Assembly (NCBI RefSeq): GCF_014252295.1
Contig: NZ_CP059215.1
Span: forward strand, 1-64,000
Source: Blattabacterium cuenoti
GTDB lineage: Bacteria; Bacteroidota; Bacteroidia; Flavobacteriales; Blattabacteriaceae
Direction of reading: 5' to 3'
Length of the DNA stretch: 64,000 nucleotides
Positions 56,709-61,676 of this stretch are shown piece by piece. Both the position numbers and the translations under genes were made by a program. The notes below the pieces were generated by a model that was not told where the DNA came from, did no database searches, and saw only the letters and a list, made by a program, of their open reading frames with translations. Numbering within the stretch: the first letter of the stretch is position 1; each line of letters begins with the position of its first letter.

Positions 56709-57911
56709 ATGAATTTACATGAATACCAAGGTCGTGACATATTGAACTCTTTTTCAATTCAGATACCATATGGTATCATTGCTTCCTCTCCAGAAGAAGC
56801 TGTAAAAGCGGCAAAAATTATTTTTCAAAGAACTGAAAAAAAATCTTTGGTAATTAAAGCGCAAATACATGCAGGCGGACGTGGAAAGTCTGGTGGTGTT
56901 CAAATTGTGAAAACTTTAGACGAAGTTTATGAAAAATCAAAAAATATATTAGGAAAATTTTTAGTTACTTCACAAACTTCTAAAAAAGGAAAATTAGTTA
57001 GAAAAATTTTATTGTCTGAAGACATTTATTCTTACGAGTTCAATCCACCTAGAGAATATTATTTATCCATATTACTCAATCGTGATATAGAAAAAAATAT
57101 GATTCTCTATTCCAAAGAAGGTGGAATGAATATAGAATCTCTTTCCAAAAAGAATCCAGAAAAAATATATACAGAAAAAATAGATCCAATATTAGGATTA
57201 CAATTATTTCAAACTAGAAAAATTGCTTTTAATCTGGATATGTATAATGATTCATTAAAAAATTTTAGTTCTTTTTTAATTTCTCTTTATGAAGCTTATA
57301 AAGCCTGCGATGCTTTATTATTGGAAATAAATCCTTTAATAAAAACATTTGATAATAAAATCATTCCTGTAGATATAAAAATAGTATTGGATGATAATGC
57401 TTTGTTCCGTAATAACAAATATTTTATGATAGAGGATAAAGAAGATGTTGATATTCTTCTTGAAAAAGAAGCTAATGAAGCAAATTTGAATTTTATAAAA
57501 TTAGAAGGAAATGTAGGATGTATGGTAAACGGAGCAGGATTAGCTATGGCTACAATGGATATGATTAAATTTTGTGGAGGAGAACCAGCTAATTTCCTAG
57601 ATATAGGAGGTTCCGCGGACAATAAACGTGTAGAAAAAGCTTTTTCTATAATATTAAAAGATCAGTCTGTTAAAACAATATTGATTAATATATTTGGTGG
57701 AATAGTTCGTTGTGATACAGTAGCAAAAGGAATAATTAATTCATATTCTAAAATCGATCATGATATTAAAATTCCTGTAGTTATTCGTTTACAGGGTACA
57801 AATGAAAAAACAGCGAAAGAAATGCTTAAAAAAAGTTCACTACCTATTTATTCTGCTGATACATTAAAAGACGCTGCTGATAAAATTAAAAATATTTTAC
57901 ATCTAAATTAA
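56709..57911 (+). CDS. sucC: Succinyl-CoA synthetase beta subunit
   Basis: SucC with SucD converts succinyl-CoA to succinate while making ATP or GTP. The 400-residue protein has the ATP-grasp domain with KAQIHAGGRGKSGGVQ near 45 and the C-terminal CoA-ligase domain with GGIVRCDTVAKGI and NLFG-like IFGGIVRCD near 330. The length is standard. SucD is not in the window. It continues the TCA module with sucA and sucB nearby. Confidence 0.97.
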   Translation: MNLHEYQGRDILNSFSIQIPYGIIASSPEEAVKAAKIIFQRTEKKSLVIKAQIHAGGRGKSGGVQIVKTLDEVYEKSKNILGKFLVTSQTSKKGKLVRKILLSEDIYSYEFNPPREYYLSILLNRDIEKNMILYSKEGGMNIESLSKKNPEKIYTEKIDPILGLQLFQTRKIAFNLDMYNDSLKNFSSFLISLYEAYKACDALLLEINPLIKTFDNKIIPVDIKIVLDDNALFRNNKYFMIEDKEDVDILLEKEANEANLNFIKLEGNVGCMVNGAGLAMATMDMIKFCGGEPANFLDIGGSADNKRVEKAFSIILKDQSVKTILINIFGGIVRCDTVAKGIINSYSKIDHDIKIPVVIRLQGTNEKTAKEMLKKSSLPIYSADTLKDAADKIKNILHLN

Positions 57912-57923
57912 AATAGATGTTCT

Positions 57924-59420
57924 ATGAATAAAATTTTTCTCAAAAAAATTATATTAGCCGAAAAATATAAACCTATTAACTTAAATGAGTTGATAGGACA
58001 AAGAAATATTTGTATTTCTTTAAAAAAAGCAATACAGGAGAATCGTTTATCTCAAGTTTTATTTTTTTTGGGACCAAAAGGAGTAGGAAAAAATACATGT
58101 GCATATATTTTAGCAAATGAATTGAATTCTTTCTCCGAATTAAAACACTCAAATGTATTTGAAATCAATGGAGGGTTTCACTACTCTTTAAAATATATTT
58201 ATAAAGTTATTGATCAATCTAGATCTTTTCCTAAAAAAGGAAAATATAACATTTTTATTTTTAAAGAATTACATAATTTTTCTCAATATTTTTTCTATCT
58301 ATTTTATAATTTTATAAAAGAAGAAAATCCACATATATTATTTATTTTTTGCGGAATAGAAGAAAAAATAATTCCAGAATTTATTTTATCACATAGTCAA
58401 ATTTATGAATTTGAAAATATTTCTGTAAAAGAAATTTTTTTTCATTTGAAAATGATTTCGGAAACAGAAAATATAGAAATAGAAAATGAATCTTTATTGA
58501 TTATTTCCCAACATGTAGAAGGATCTCTAAGTAAGGCTATTCATTTGTTCGATAGATTTCTATCTATTAATAAAACAAAAATAACTAAATGCCTTATAAT
58601 GAATAAATTAGGAATTATTGACATAAAATACTATTTTGAAATAGTAGATCATATTTTAAACGAAAATGTCAATAAAATATTGATCCTGTTAGATACAGTA
58701 TTTCAAAAAAAAATTTACTATTATAATTTTGTAGCTGGATTAACTAAACATTTCAGAAATTTATTTTTTTCTAAAAATTATGAAACAATTTCTATTTTGA
58801 AATTCAAAAAAGAGATAATACAATCTTATGTTGAACAATCAAAAAAAATATCTTCCTTTTTTTTAATTCATTCTTTAAATATATTTCATCGTTTAGAAAA
58901 CGAATGCAGATTAAAAAATCAAAATTCCAGATTGACTATAGAAATAAATTTAATACAATTAACACATTTTTTTTCTATTCATAAAAAAAAAAATCATAAA
59001 AATTTAACAATGCAAACGATAGAAAAAGATCGTAAAGAATTTTATTTATATGAAGAGAACGAAAAAATTCAGTTCTTGCAAAAGAATTGGATGATATTCG
59101 TACAGAAATTTTCAAGAAAAATAAATCCTATTTACTTGGACTTTTTAAAAAATGAAATACAATTTCAAATCATAAAAAATAAAATACTTTTTATGATCCC
59201 ATCAAAATTAGAGAATCGATATTTTTTATTAATTCAAAAAAATTTTGAAAAATATTTCAAAAAAAAATTAAGTAGTTCAGATTTGGAGTTTCAAGTCATA
59301 AAAAAAGAATATCCAATCAAACAGTTAGAACAATATAATTTTTTATATAAAAAAAATAAATTAGTAGAAACATTAATAGAACGATTGAATTTAAAAATAT
59401 CTTCTTCTAGAACTAAATAG
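57924..59420 (+). CDS. dnaX: Divergent DNA polymerase III gamma/tau subunit
   Basis: DnaX is the AAA+ subunit that, with delta and delta-prime, loads the sliding clamp. The 498-residue protein starts AEKYKPINLNELIGQ and has LGPKGVGKNT at 49-58, aligning with DnaX. The P-loop has Asn57 where Ser/Thr binds Mg2+. The Walker B aspartate is Lys114 (FIFKELH). The arginine finger SRC reads SHS (His157). The four-cysteine zinc module is absent. The C-terminal region (about 360-498) resembles a short tau-like tail. It follows sucC by 12 bp. Function may persist structurally, with low ATPase activity. Confidence 0.85.
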   Translation: MNKIFLKKIILAEKYKPINLNELIGQRNICISLKKAIQENRLSQVLFFLGPKGVGKNTCAYILANELNSFSELKHSNVFEINGGFHYSLKYIYKVIDQSRSFPKKGKYNIFIFKELHNFSQYFFYLFYNFIKEENPHILFIFCGIEEKIIPEFILSHSQIYEFENISVKEIFFHLKMISETENIEIENESLLIISQHVEGSLSKAIHLFDRFLSINKTKITKCLIMNKLGIIDIKYYFEIVDHILNENVNKILILLDTVFQKKIYYYNFVAGLTKHFRNLFFSKNYETISILKFKKEIIQSYVEQSKKISSFFLIHSLNIFHRLENECRLKNQNSRLTIEINLIQLTHFFSIHKKKNHKNLTMQTIEKDRKEFYLYEENEKIQFLQKNWMIFVQKFSRKINPIYLDFLKNEIQFQIIKNKILFMIPSKLENRYFLLIQKNFEKYFKKKLSSSDLEFQVIKKEYPIKQLEQYNFLYKKNKLVETLIERLNLKISSSRTK

Positions 59421-59561: not shown

Positions 59562-61676
59562 ATGATTCATTATTACTCGTCAAAAATTATAAAAAAAGTT
59601 TTTTTCTCTTATTCAGATGAAGACATGGAAAATGATAATAGTTCTACTTCTTATTCTTACGGATCAGGAGGAAGTGGAGCAGGATCAGGTTATTATGGAG
59701 GAGCTTCAATAAAAAGCAAAACTCCTGTTTTGGATAATTTTGGGAGAGATTTGAATGCTATAGCAATAGAAGGTAAATTAGATCCAGTAGTTGGAAGAGA
59801 CAAAGAAGTAGAACGTGTTTCTCAAATATTGAGTAGAAGAAAGAAAAACAATCCTTTACTTATAGGAGAACCTGGGGTAGGAAAATCAGCAATAGCCGAA
59901 GGATTAGCGCTTCGTATTGTGCAAAAAAAAGTATCTAGGGTATTATACAATAAAAGAGTGGTTGTTTTGGATTTAGCCAGCTTGGTCGCTGGAACTAAAT
60001 ATAGAGGACAATTTGAAGAAAGAATAAAGACAATTATAAATGAATCAGAAAAAAATTCTGGTCTAATCCTTTTTATAGATGAAATACACACAATGATTGG
60101 AGCAGGAGGAACAACAGGATCATTAGATGCATCTAATATATTTAAACCGGCTTTGGCACGAGGATATATTCAATGTATTGGAGCCACTACATTGAATGAA
60201 TATAGACAATATATAGAAAAAGATGGAGCTTTAGAACGAAGATTTCAAAAAATTATAGTACAACCCTCTTCTGAGGAAGAAACTATAGAAATATTGAAAA
60301 AAATAAAAGGGGAATATGAGAGTCATCACAATGTTCTTTATACAGAAAAAGCAATAAAATCTTGTGTAACTCTAACTGTCCGCTATCTTGTAGACCGTCA
60401 TTTACCTGATAAAGCTATTGATGCTTTAGATGAATCAGGATCTCGCGTGCATATTAAAAATATAAAAGTTCCTCAGGAGATAGTCATTCTGGAAAAAGAA
60501 TTAGAAAATATTCGTAAAGAAAAATCTAAAGTTGTTAAAAGCCAAAAATACGAGGAAGCTGCACGTTTACGTGATACAGAAAAACGTATAGAAAAACAAT
60601 TGATAAAGGCTCAAAAGGAATGGGAAAAATCTTCTAAAGAAAATAAAGAAATCGTATCTGAAGAAAATATTGAAGAAGTAGTATCTATGATGAGTGGAGT
60701 TCCAGTAAAAAAAATAGCTCAAGCTGAAATGAGAAAGTTAAATAGAATGACAGACATATTAAAAGAAAAAATAATAGGTCAAGATGAAGCAATAGAAAAG
60801 ATAGTAAAAGCAGTTCAAAGAAACAGAACTGGATTAAAAGATCCTAATTCTCCTATAGGTTCTTTTATTTTTTTAGGACAAACAGGTGTAGGGAAAACCT
60901 ATTTAGCAAAAATTTTCTCAAAAGAACTATTTGATTCAGAAGAATCATTAATACGTCTAGATATGAGTGAATATATGGAAAAATTTTCTGTTTCTAGATT
61001 AATAGGGGCTCCTCCAGGTTATGTTGGTTATGAAGAAGGAGGACAATTAACAGAAATTATACGTCGTAAACCATATTCTGTAATATTGTTGGATGAAATA
61101 GAAAAAGCACATCATGAAGTATTTAATATTTTATTGCAAATGTTGGATTACGGATGTGTAACAGACAGTATTGGAAGAAAAATAAATTTTAAAAATACCG
61201 TAATTATTTTTACGTCAAATACAGGGACACAACAATTAAAAGAATTCGGTAAAGGAATTGGATTCCATACTAAAGCACGACAATCAAATAATTACATTAA
61301 AAATATCCTAGAGCAATCTTTAAAAAGAACTTTTCCTCCAGAATTTTTAAATAGAATAGACGATATTCTTATTTTTAACTCTTTAACACGAGAAAATATA
61401 TCTAAGATAACTTCTATAGAATTAAAAAAGATAATACTTCATGTTTCTAATCTAGGTTATAGGTTAACTTTATTACCTGAAGTAATAAACTTTATTCAAA
61501 AAAAAGGATTTGATCATGAATACGGAGCTCGTCCTTTAAAAAGAGTAATGGAAACATTTATTAAAAATCCTATATCAGAATGTATTATTAATGAAACATT
61601 AAAAAAAGGAGATATAATCTCATTGAGAATGAATAAAAAAAATAACAACACAGAAGCTTTAATTCAAAAAATATGA
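59562..61676 (+). CDS. clpC: ClpC-type Clp ATPase lacking the N-domain
   Basis: ClpC unfolds proteins for ClpP. The 704-residue protein has two AAA+ modules, with Walker A GEPGVGKS at 102-109 and GQTGVGKT at 439-446, and a central UVR-like coiled coil (about 310-360). ClpC proteins are usually about 840 residues. The missing piece is the N-terminal repeat domain that binds adaptors and substrates. The protein instead opens with about 50 residues of a Gly/Ser/acidic linker. A second possible start is ATG 59625. The 141-bp gap before it holds no recognisable N-domain code. It overlaps nth as ATGA. Confidence 0.92.
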   Translation: MIHYYSSKIIKKVFFSYSDEDMENDNSSTSYSYGSGGSGAGSGYYGGASIKSKTPVLDNFGRDLNAIAIEGKLDPVVGRDKEVERVSQILSRRKKNNPLLIGEPGVGKSAIAEGLALRIVQKKVSRVLYNKRVVVLDLASLVAGTKYRGQFEERIKTIINESEKNSGLILFIDEIHTMIGAGGTTGSLDASNIFKPALARGYIQCIGATTLNEYRQYIEKDGALERRFQKIIVQPSSEEETIEILKKIKGEYESHHNVLYTEKAIKSCVTLTVRYLVDRHLPDKAIDALDESGSRVHIKNIKVPQEIVILEKELENIRKEKSKVVKSQKYEEAARLRDTEKRIEKQLIKAQKEWEKSSKENKEIVSEENIEEVVSMMSGVPVKKIAQAEMRKLNRMTDILKEKIIGQDEAIEKIVKAVQRNRTGLKDPNSPIGSFIFLGQTGVGKTYLAKIFSKELFDSEESLIRLDMSEYMEKFSVSRLIGAPPGYVGYEEGGQLTEIIRRKPYSVILLDEIEKAHHEVFNILLQMLDYGCVTDSIGRKINFKNTVIIFTSNTGTQQLKEFGKGIGFHTKARQSNNYIKNILEQSLKRTFPPEFLNRIDDILIFNSLTRENISKITSIELKKIILHVSNLGYRLTLLPEVINFIQKKGFDHEYGARPLKRVMETFIKNPISECIINETLKKGDIISLRMNKKNNNTEALIQKI

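Follow-up and report, generated by a model that had tools for sequence, protein, structure and literature searches.

A Blattabacterium DnaX with a degenerate ATPase site is most likely no longer a clamp loader

Introduction

Cellular replication is regarded as depending almost universally on a sliding clamp and on a loader driven by ATP. Clamp loaders can contain ATPase-dead AAA+ subunits: E. coli delta' (HolB) and yeast Rfc5 carry a degenerate nucleotide site and are kept for structure. Both of these stand beside active ATPase subunits, whereas Blattabacterium appears to be left without any active clamp-loader ATPase.

In E. coli the tau form of DnaX is bound by the C-terminal domain of DnaE and also touches the helicase (PMC3919608). 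Loss of the corresponding genes has been described in Portiera, where dnaX, dnaN, holA, holB and dnaQ were lost on one branch (PMC5322561), and in Uzinura, which lacks dnaX and dnaN, and Sulcia, which lacks dnaX; the latter study scored Blattabacterium dnaX as 'present' (PMC3971599). These systems resemble the one analysed here in that replication apparently proceeds without a clamp loader, but there the genes vanish, whereas Blattabacterium retains a conserved and almost certainly ATPase-dead DnaX even in species that have no clamp. Erosion of dnaN in the genus has already been noticed: a 2009 study of strain Bge detected neither dnaN nor dnaA (PMC2768785), and dnaN is a pseudogene in the Blattabacterium of P. 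japonica (PMC6039017). Our literature search, which drew on papers other than the principal study of gene loss in the genus (Kinjo 2021, MBE), turned up no description of a DnaX that is ATPase-dead throughout the genus, of absent HolA and HolB, of a DnaE without its clamp motif or of DnaX outliving the clamp.

Results and discussion

The window dnaX encodes a diverged orthologue with a tau-type C-terminus

The window, i.e. the whole 64,000-nucleotide stretch of Blattabacterium cuenoti DNA that was analysed, forms the beginning of a genome consisting of a single contig of 624,952 bases with about 25% GC. The features considered here are, in window coordinates:

56709..57911, + strand: sucC, upstream flank of dnaX (synteny marker)
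57924..59420, + strand: dnaX, 498 amino acids, open reading frame without internal stop, comprising an AAA+ ATPase module with apparently dead motifs, lid, collar domain III and tau-type C-terminal domain
58071..58097, + strand: Walker A, GPKGVGKNT, with N57 (58092-58094) in place of Thr and the Lys kept
58254..58274, + strand: Walker B, FIFKELH, with K114 (58263-58265) in place of Asp and Glu115 kept
58350..58367, + strand: sensor 1 region, CGIEEK instead of ATTEKH, first Thr lost (ATT to CGI)
58386..58400, + strand: SRC position, LSHSQ, where SRC reads SHS, with H157 (58392-58394) in place of the trans-acting Arg
58521..58538, + strand: sensor 2, GSLSKA, with S203 (58530-58532) in place of Arg
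58983..58993, + strand: A11 run at the gamma/tau boundary, matching in position the A10 slippage run in dnaX of free-living Bacteroidota
59073..59411, + strand: C-terminal tau-type domain (about residues 384-496), aligned by hhalign to the outgroup tau C-terminus with a probability of 94.9 over 108 columns, colinear to the end
59562..61676, + strand: clpB-like gene, downstream flank of dnaX (synteny marker), N-terminal domain absent

The top NCBIfam models for the protein are all DnaX, E. coli tau matches it with an E value of 8e-20, and PF13177 scores 33 bits against a cut-off of 27. The equivalog cut-offs of NCBIfam are not reached (TIGR02397, 191.6 of 250 bits; NF011531, 253 of 685 bits). 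The order sucC-dnaX-clpB is conserved across the genus, and in the AlphaFold2 model (mean pLDDT 83) residues 7-356 match E. coli gamma/tau with a Z score of about 27, so that the fold is predicted to be intact over this region. By rank, synteny and fold the window protein is thus an orthologue of DnaX that is too diverged for a functional equivalog cut-off. It shares with E. coli DnaX the orthologous gene, the fold and a tau-type C-terminal extension, and differs from it in lacking the Walker A Thr, Walker B Asp, sensor 1, sensor 2 and SRC Arg, in a genome without delta and delta'.

The hhalign comparison shows homology between the C-terminal stretch of about 110 residues and the C-terminus specific to tau in free-living Flavobacteriales. 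Predicted alone and without an alignment, this domain reaches a pLDDT of 62 and its best PDB match has an E value of 0.065, which is not meaningful; coming from a low-confidence model, this is no sign that a known fold is lacking. The downstream clpB-like gene encodes a ClpB-like disaggregase of 704 amino acids, which carries a Ser/Gly-rich tail in place of the N-terminal domain.

ATPase motifs are degenerate throughout the genus

A sequence-only reading of the locus had noted Asn for the P-loop Ser/Thr, Lys for the Walker B Asp and His for the arginine finger. N57, K114 and H157 are indeed all present, and the losses of the sensor 1 Thr and the sensor 2 Arg come in addition. We compared 37 Blattabacterium genomes (the window species and 36 relatives), with motif counts based on the 34 that have an alignable AAA+ module. 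The P-loop T/S position is Asn in 29 of the 34, Ser in four and His in one; neither the Walker B DE pair nor the sensor 2 Arg is kept in any of them (0/34 each), and not one DnaX retains the full set of ATPase residues (0/34). The SRC Arg is kept in 19/34, which suggests that its loss is recent and repeated within the genus. The P-loop Lys56 is invariant (34/34), and no other 15-residue block of the protein is as well conserved as the P-loop.

As controls we used DnaX from 77 named free-living Bacteroidota. A contig search with a single DnaX protein as query had given no match, and a second search returned only free-living Bacteroidota, which were taken as this control set. The P-loop Thr, the Walker B DE pair and the sensor 1 Thr are each found in 77/77, as is the sensor 2 Arg (one by eye); SRC is found in 76/77, the remaining one being a missed match. 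Genus-wide losses against intact controls argue that the motif losses are not due to chance. The ATPase chemistry of the window DnaX is thus almost certainly lost, in agreement with the sequence-only reading.

That reading had also counted a missing zinc module among the changes. The window DnaX has no Cys cluster, but this is not a loss in the symbiont, as most free-living relatives lack the cluster as well: in 52 of the 77 control proteins, the 60 residues following the P-loop contain no more than one Cys. We have therefore rejected the absent zinc module as a symptom of decay.

Among the structure matches of the DnaX model is PDB 3glg, the T157A mutant of E. coli gamma. The mutated residue is a conserved Thr of the ATPase site, located at sensor 1. 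The likeness to the window protein lies in this kind of change, whereas in gamma T157A a single residue was altered by design and the rest of the motor is intact.

Partner subunits and alternative ATPases are missing

Profile searches find neither HolA nor HolB in any of the 37 genus genomes; matches are to paralogues (DnaX, RuvB, Clp) or there are none. The same profiles match strongly in outgroup genomes, with HolA recovered in 22 of 23 and the exception being 76% complete. When HolA and HolB profiles built from outgroups are run at maximum sensitivity against all open reading frames of the window genome, the HolB profile hits only DnaX and the HolA profile hits nothing, while control profiles recover DnaN (E 1e-67) and DnaX (E 1e-90). 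A HolA candidate at genome positions 418980-419228 was rejected, as it scores 15.5 bits, below the cut-off, and is part of a 583-residue frame.

A search of the single-contig 625-kb genome for a second intact dnaX, a RarA-like protein or HolB yields only RuvB and Clp paralogues. DNA polymerase I (PolA, PF00476) is absent from 37/37 genus genomes; DnaE and DnaB were recovered from every genus genome searched. With HolA, HolB, a second DnaX and PolA all missing, no other known subunit appears to supply the ATPase activity, and the earlier suggestion that another subunit does so loses its ground.

DnaE has lost its clamp-binding motif and the clamp pocket has changed

The QxxLF clamp-binding motif of DnaE is found in 0/37 genus members and in 6/6 outgroups from six families, where it reads QVSLF, QFDMF, QASLF, QLSLF or QLEMF. 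In most genus members it has been deleted outright. On the side of the clamp, the docking pocket is changed in every genus member readable there, from MPVML to MSTI or MSVI at the C-terminus and from TDAHKL to TDTYKL or TDTFRL. A contact with the clamp might still be made in another way, through the proofreading subunit DnaQ.

DnaN is found in 30 species. In most of those possessing the clamp, dnaN has a dN/dS of 0.14-0.45, and this purifying selection indicates that the clamp has some job there. In the pair G033/G036 (L143, L144) the value is 0.89 (0.61-1.34), compared with 0.62 for dnaX, and the clamp looks nearly unconstrained. The dnaN frame is broken in G017 (L109, near an A13 run) and G002 (C1:580876-581978), which may reflect further erosion, slippage or sequencing error.

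dnaX is under purifying selection and can outlive dnaN

The genus set contains 32 full-length dnaX open reading frames of about 460-515 codons at 25% GC. In all pairs tested dN/dS, taken across the entire gene, lies between 0.21 and 0.62 and is clearly less than 1; for the lineage of the window it is 0.24-0.30 (against G010, G017 and G011). The comparison among related symbionts that had been proposed from the sequence thus finds DnaX changes common to the genus in a gene under purifying selection. The protein evolves about twice as fast as SucC.

In seven genomes dnaN is cleanly deleted before pheT; pdxH is also gone in G025. An assembly gap was rejected as the cause, since the flanking genes are contiguous. 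The seven species form one clade with a support of 1.0 in a DnaE+SucC+ClpB tree with outgroups, and this monophyly makes a single, old loss probable. Two independent losses, suggested by a two-gene tree that placed G025 elsewhere, were unsupported once DnaE and outgroups had been added. As the branches are long, the grouping could in part reflect long-branch attraction.

Five members of this clade (G008, G009, G016, G025 and G028) have a full-length dnaX. For G008 and G009 the dN/dS of dnaX is 0.49 (95% 0.37-0.67), over a divergence that falls entirely after the loss of dnaN if that loss was single, and in neutral simulations neither dnaX frame ever stayed open. These data indicate that purifying selection keeps dnaX even in species without a clamp. 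A sixth member, G020, has no recognisable AAA+ region and retains 255 open codons that correspond to domain III and the tau domain; the chance of these staying open is about 1e-12.

The converse is also seen. In G021, a close sister of the window species, sucC adjoins clpB, and dnaX is deleted while dnaN is intact; dnaX is lost in G019 as well. Long, stop-ridden remnants of eroded dnaX lie between sucC and clpB in G020 (L049:1893-2500), where only the 3' half is open, and in G019 (L050:3580-4430).

A scaffold without a motor as the favoured explanation

Based on the lost ATPase motifs, the absence of HolA and HolB, the missing DnaE motif and the persistence of DnaX beyond the clamp, we favour a scaffold. 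The window DnaX is most likely no longer a clamp loader, and it is probable, though far from assured, that the ATPase-dead protein is retained as a static, tau-like scaffold, a role that we infer. The comparison shows that delta (HolA), delta' (HolB) and the DnaE clamp motif were lost, and that the ATPase site of DnaX decayed, in the ancestor of Blattabacterium; on this reading the clamp-loading pathway was taken apart stepwise. The AAA+ module, with its conserved P-loop Lys and loop, may still bind nucleotide; binding without hydrolysis would hold the oligomer together, with collar domain III providing oligomerisation. Judging from the roles of tau in E. coli, the C-terminal domain would act at the fork as a tether for DnaE and perhaps also for DnaB, both partners being encoded. 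In that case coupling of DnaE, DnaX and DnaB, and not a loaded clamp, would provide processivity, and the clamp, where present, would be a lingering protein with no known loader to put it on DNA. Points against the scaffold are that dnaX is dispensable at least sometimes, as it is lost in G021 and G019, and that the constraint on dnaN in most species possessing it speaks for a clamp that has some use there.

These same losses, together with the truncation in G020, the broken frames in G003 and G022 and the fast evolution of the protein relative to SucC, would also be expected if DnaX were a functionless relic whose reading frame survives because decay takes time. We consider this unlikely, as dN/dS is below 1 in every tested pair, the 32 full-length frames persist at such a low GC content and the G008 and G009 frames do not survive neutral simulation. 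Less likely still is a reduced, hydrolysis-free loader, in which a DnaX homo-oligomer would need only to bind nucleotide in order to open DnaN, or stabilise it, on primed DNA. The sequence-only reading had raised loading by a reduced mechanism, and the conserved P-loop, the SRC Arg in 19/34 and the mostly constrained DnaN of 30 species are in line with it. It is weakened by the absence of the clamp-opening delta subunit and of the clamp-binding motif in all 37 DnaE proteins, and by genes that part company in both directions: one clade is without dnaN yet mostly with dnaX, which outlives dnaN there in five species, and G021 is without dnaX yet with dnaN.

A new role apart from the fork polymerase, e.g. 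as partner of RuvB or another ATPase, would account for the persistence of DnaX where delta and delta' are missing and, in some species, the clamp as well. We regard it as very improbable, given that the tau-specific C-terminal and collar domains are kept, and are the sole parts left in G020, which points to the replisome.

Returning to the scaffold, five species with DnaX and no clamp and a sixth with a domain III-tau fragment offer natural proteins in which a scaffold role of tau can be studied separately from clamp loading. The 37 related complete or near-complete genomes can be read as stages of a dismantling that would proceed from the partners through the polymerase tag, the motor and the clamp pocket to the clamp or DnaX. 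More tentatively, and as a prospect to which we give slightly less than even weight, the whole genus might dispense with a clamp loader altogether and replicate its chromosome by DnaE and DnaB, with the former loader ATPase as a permanently non-hydrolysing scaffold that confers clamp-independent processivity, after which some species deleted the clamp. A gene table that scores a symbiont as 'dnaX present, dnaN present' should not be equated with clamp-dependent replication.

An A run at the gamma/tau boundary

A two-ORF organisation of dnaX with 10 As has been described for nine species (PMC3711429). Among the free-living Bacteroidota, 69/77 have an A run of at least 9, mostly A10, at the gamma/tau boundary, and all short-ORF dnaX genes (17/17) end within 25 codons of it. 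This run is probably a transcriptional slippage site that produces gamma and tau across Bacteroidota. In G003 and G022 dnaX is out of frame at the gamma/tau A run; located at long A runs, these frame breaks may be due to sequencing error or slippage.
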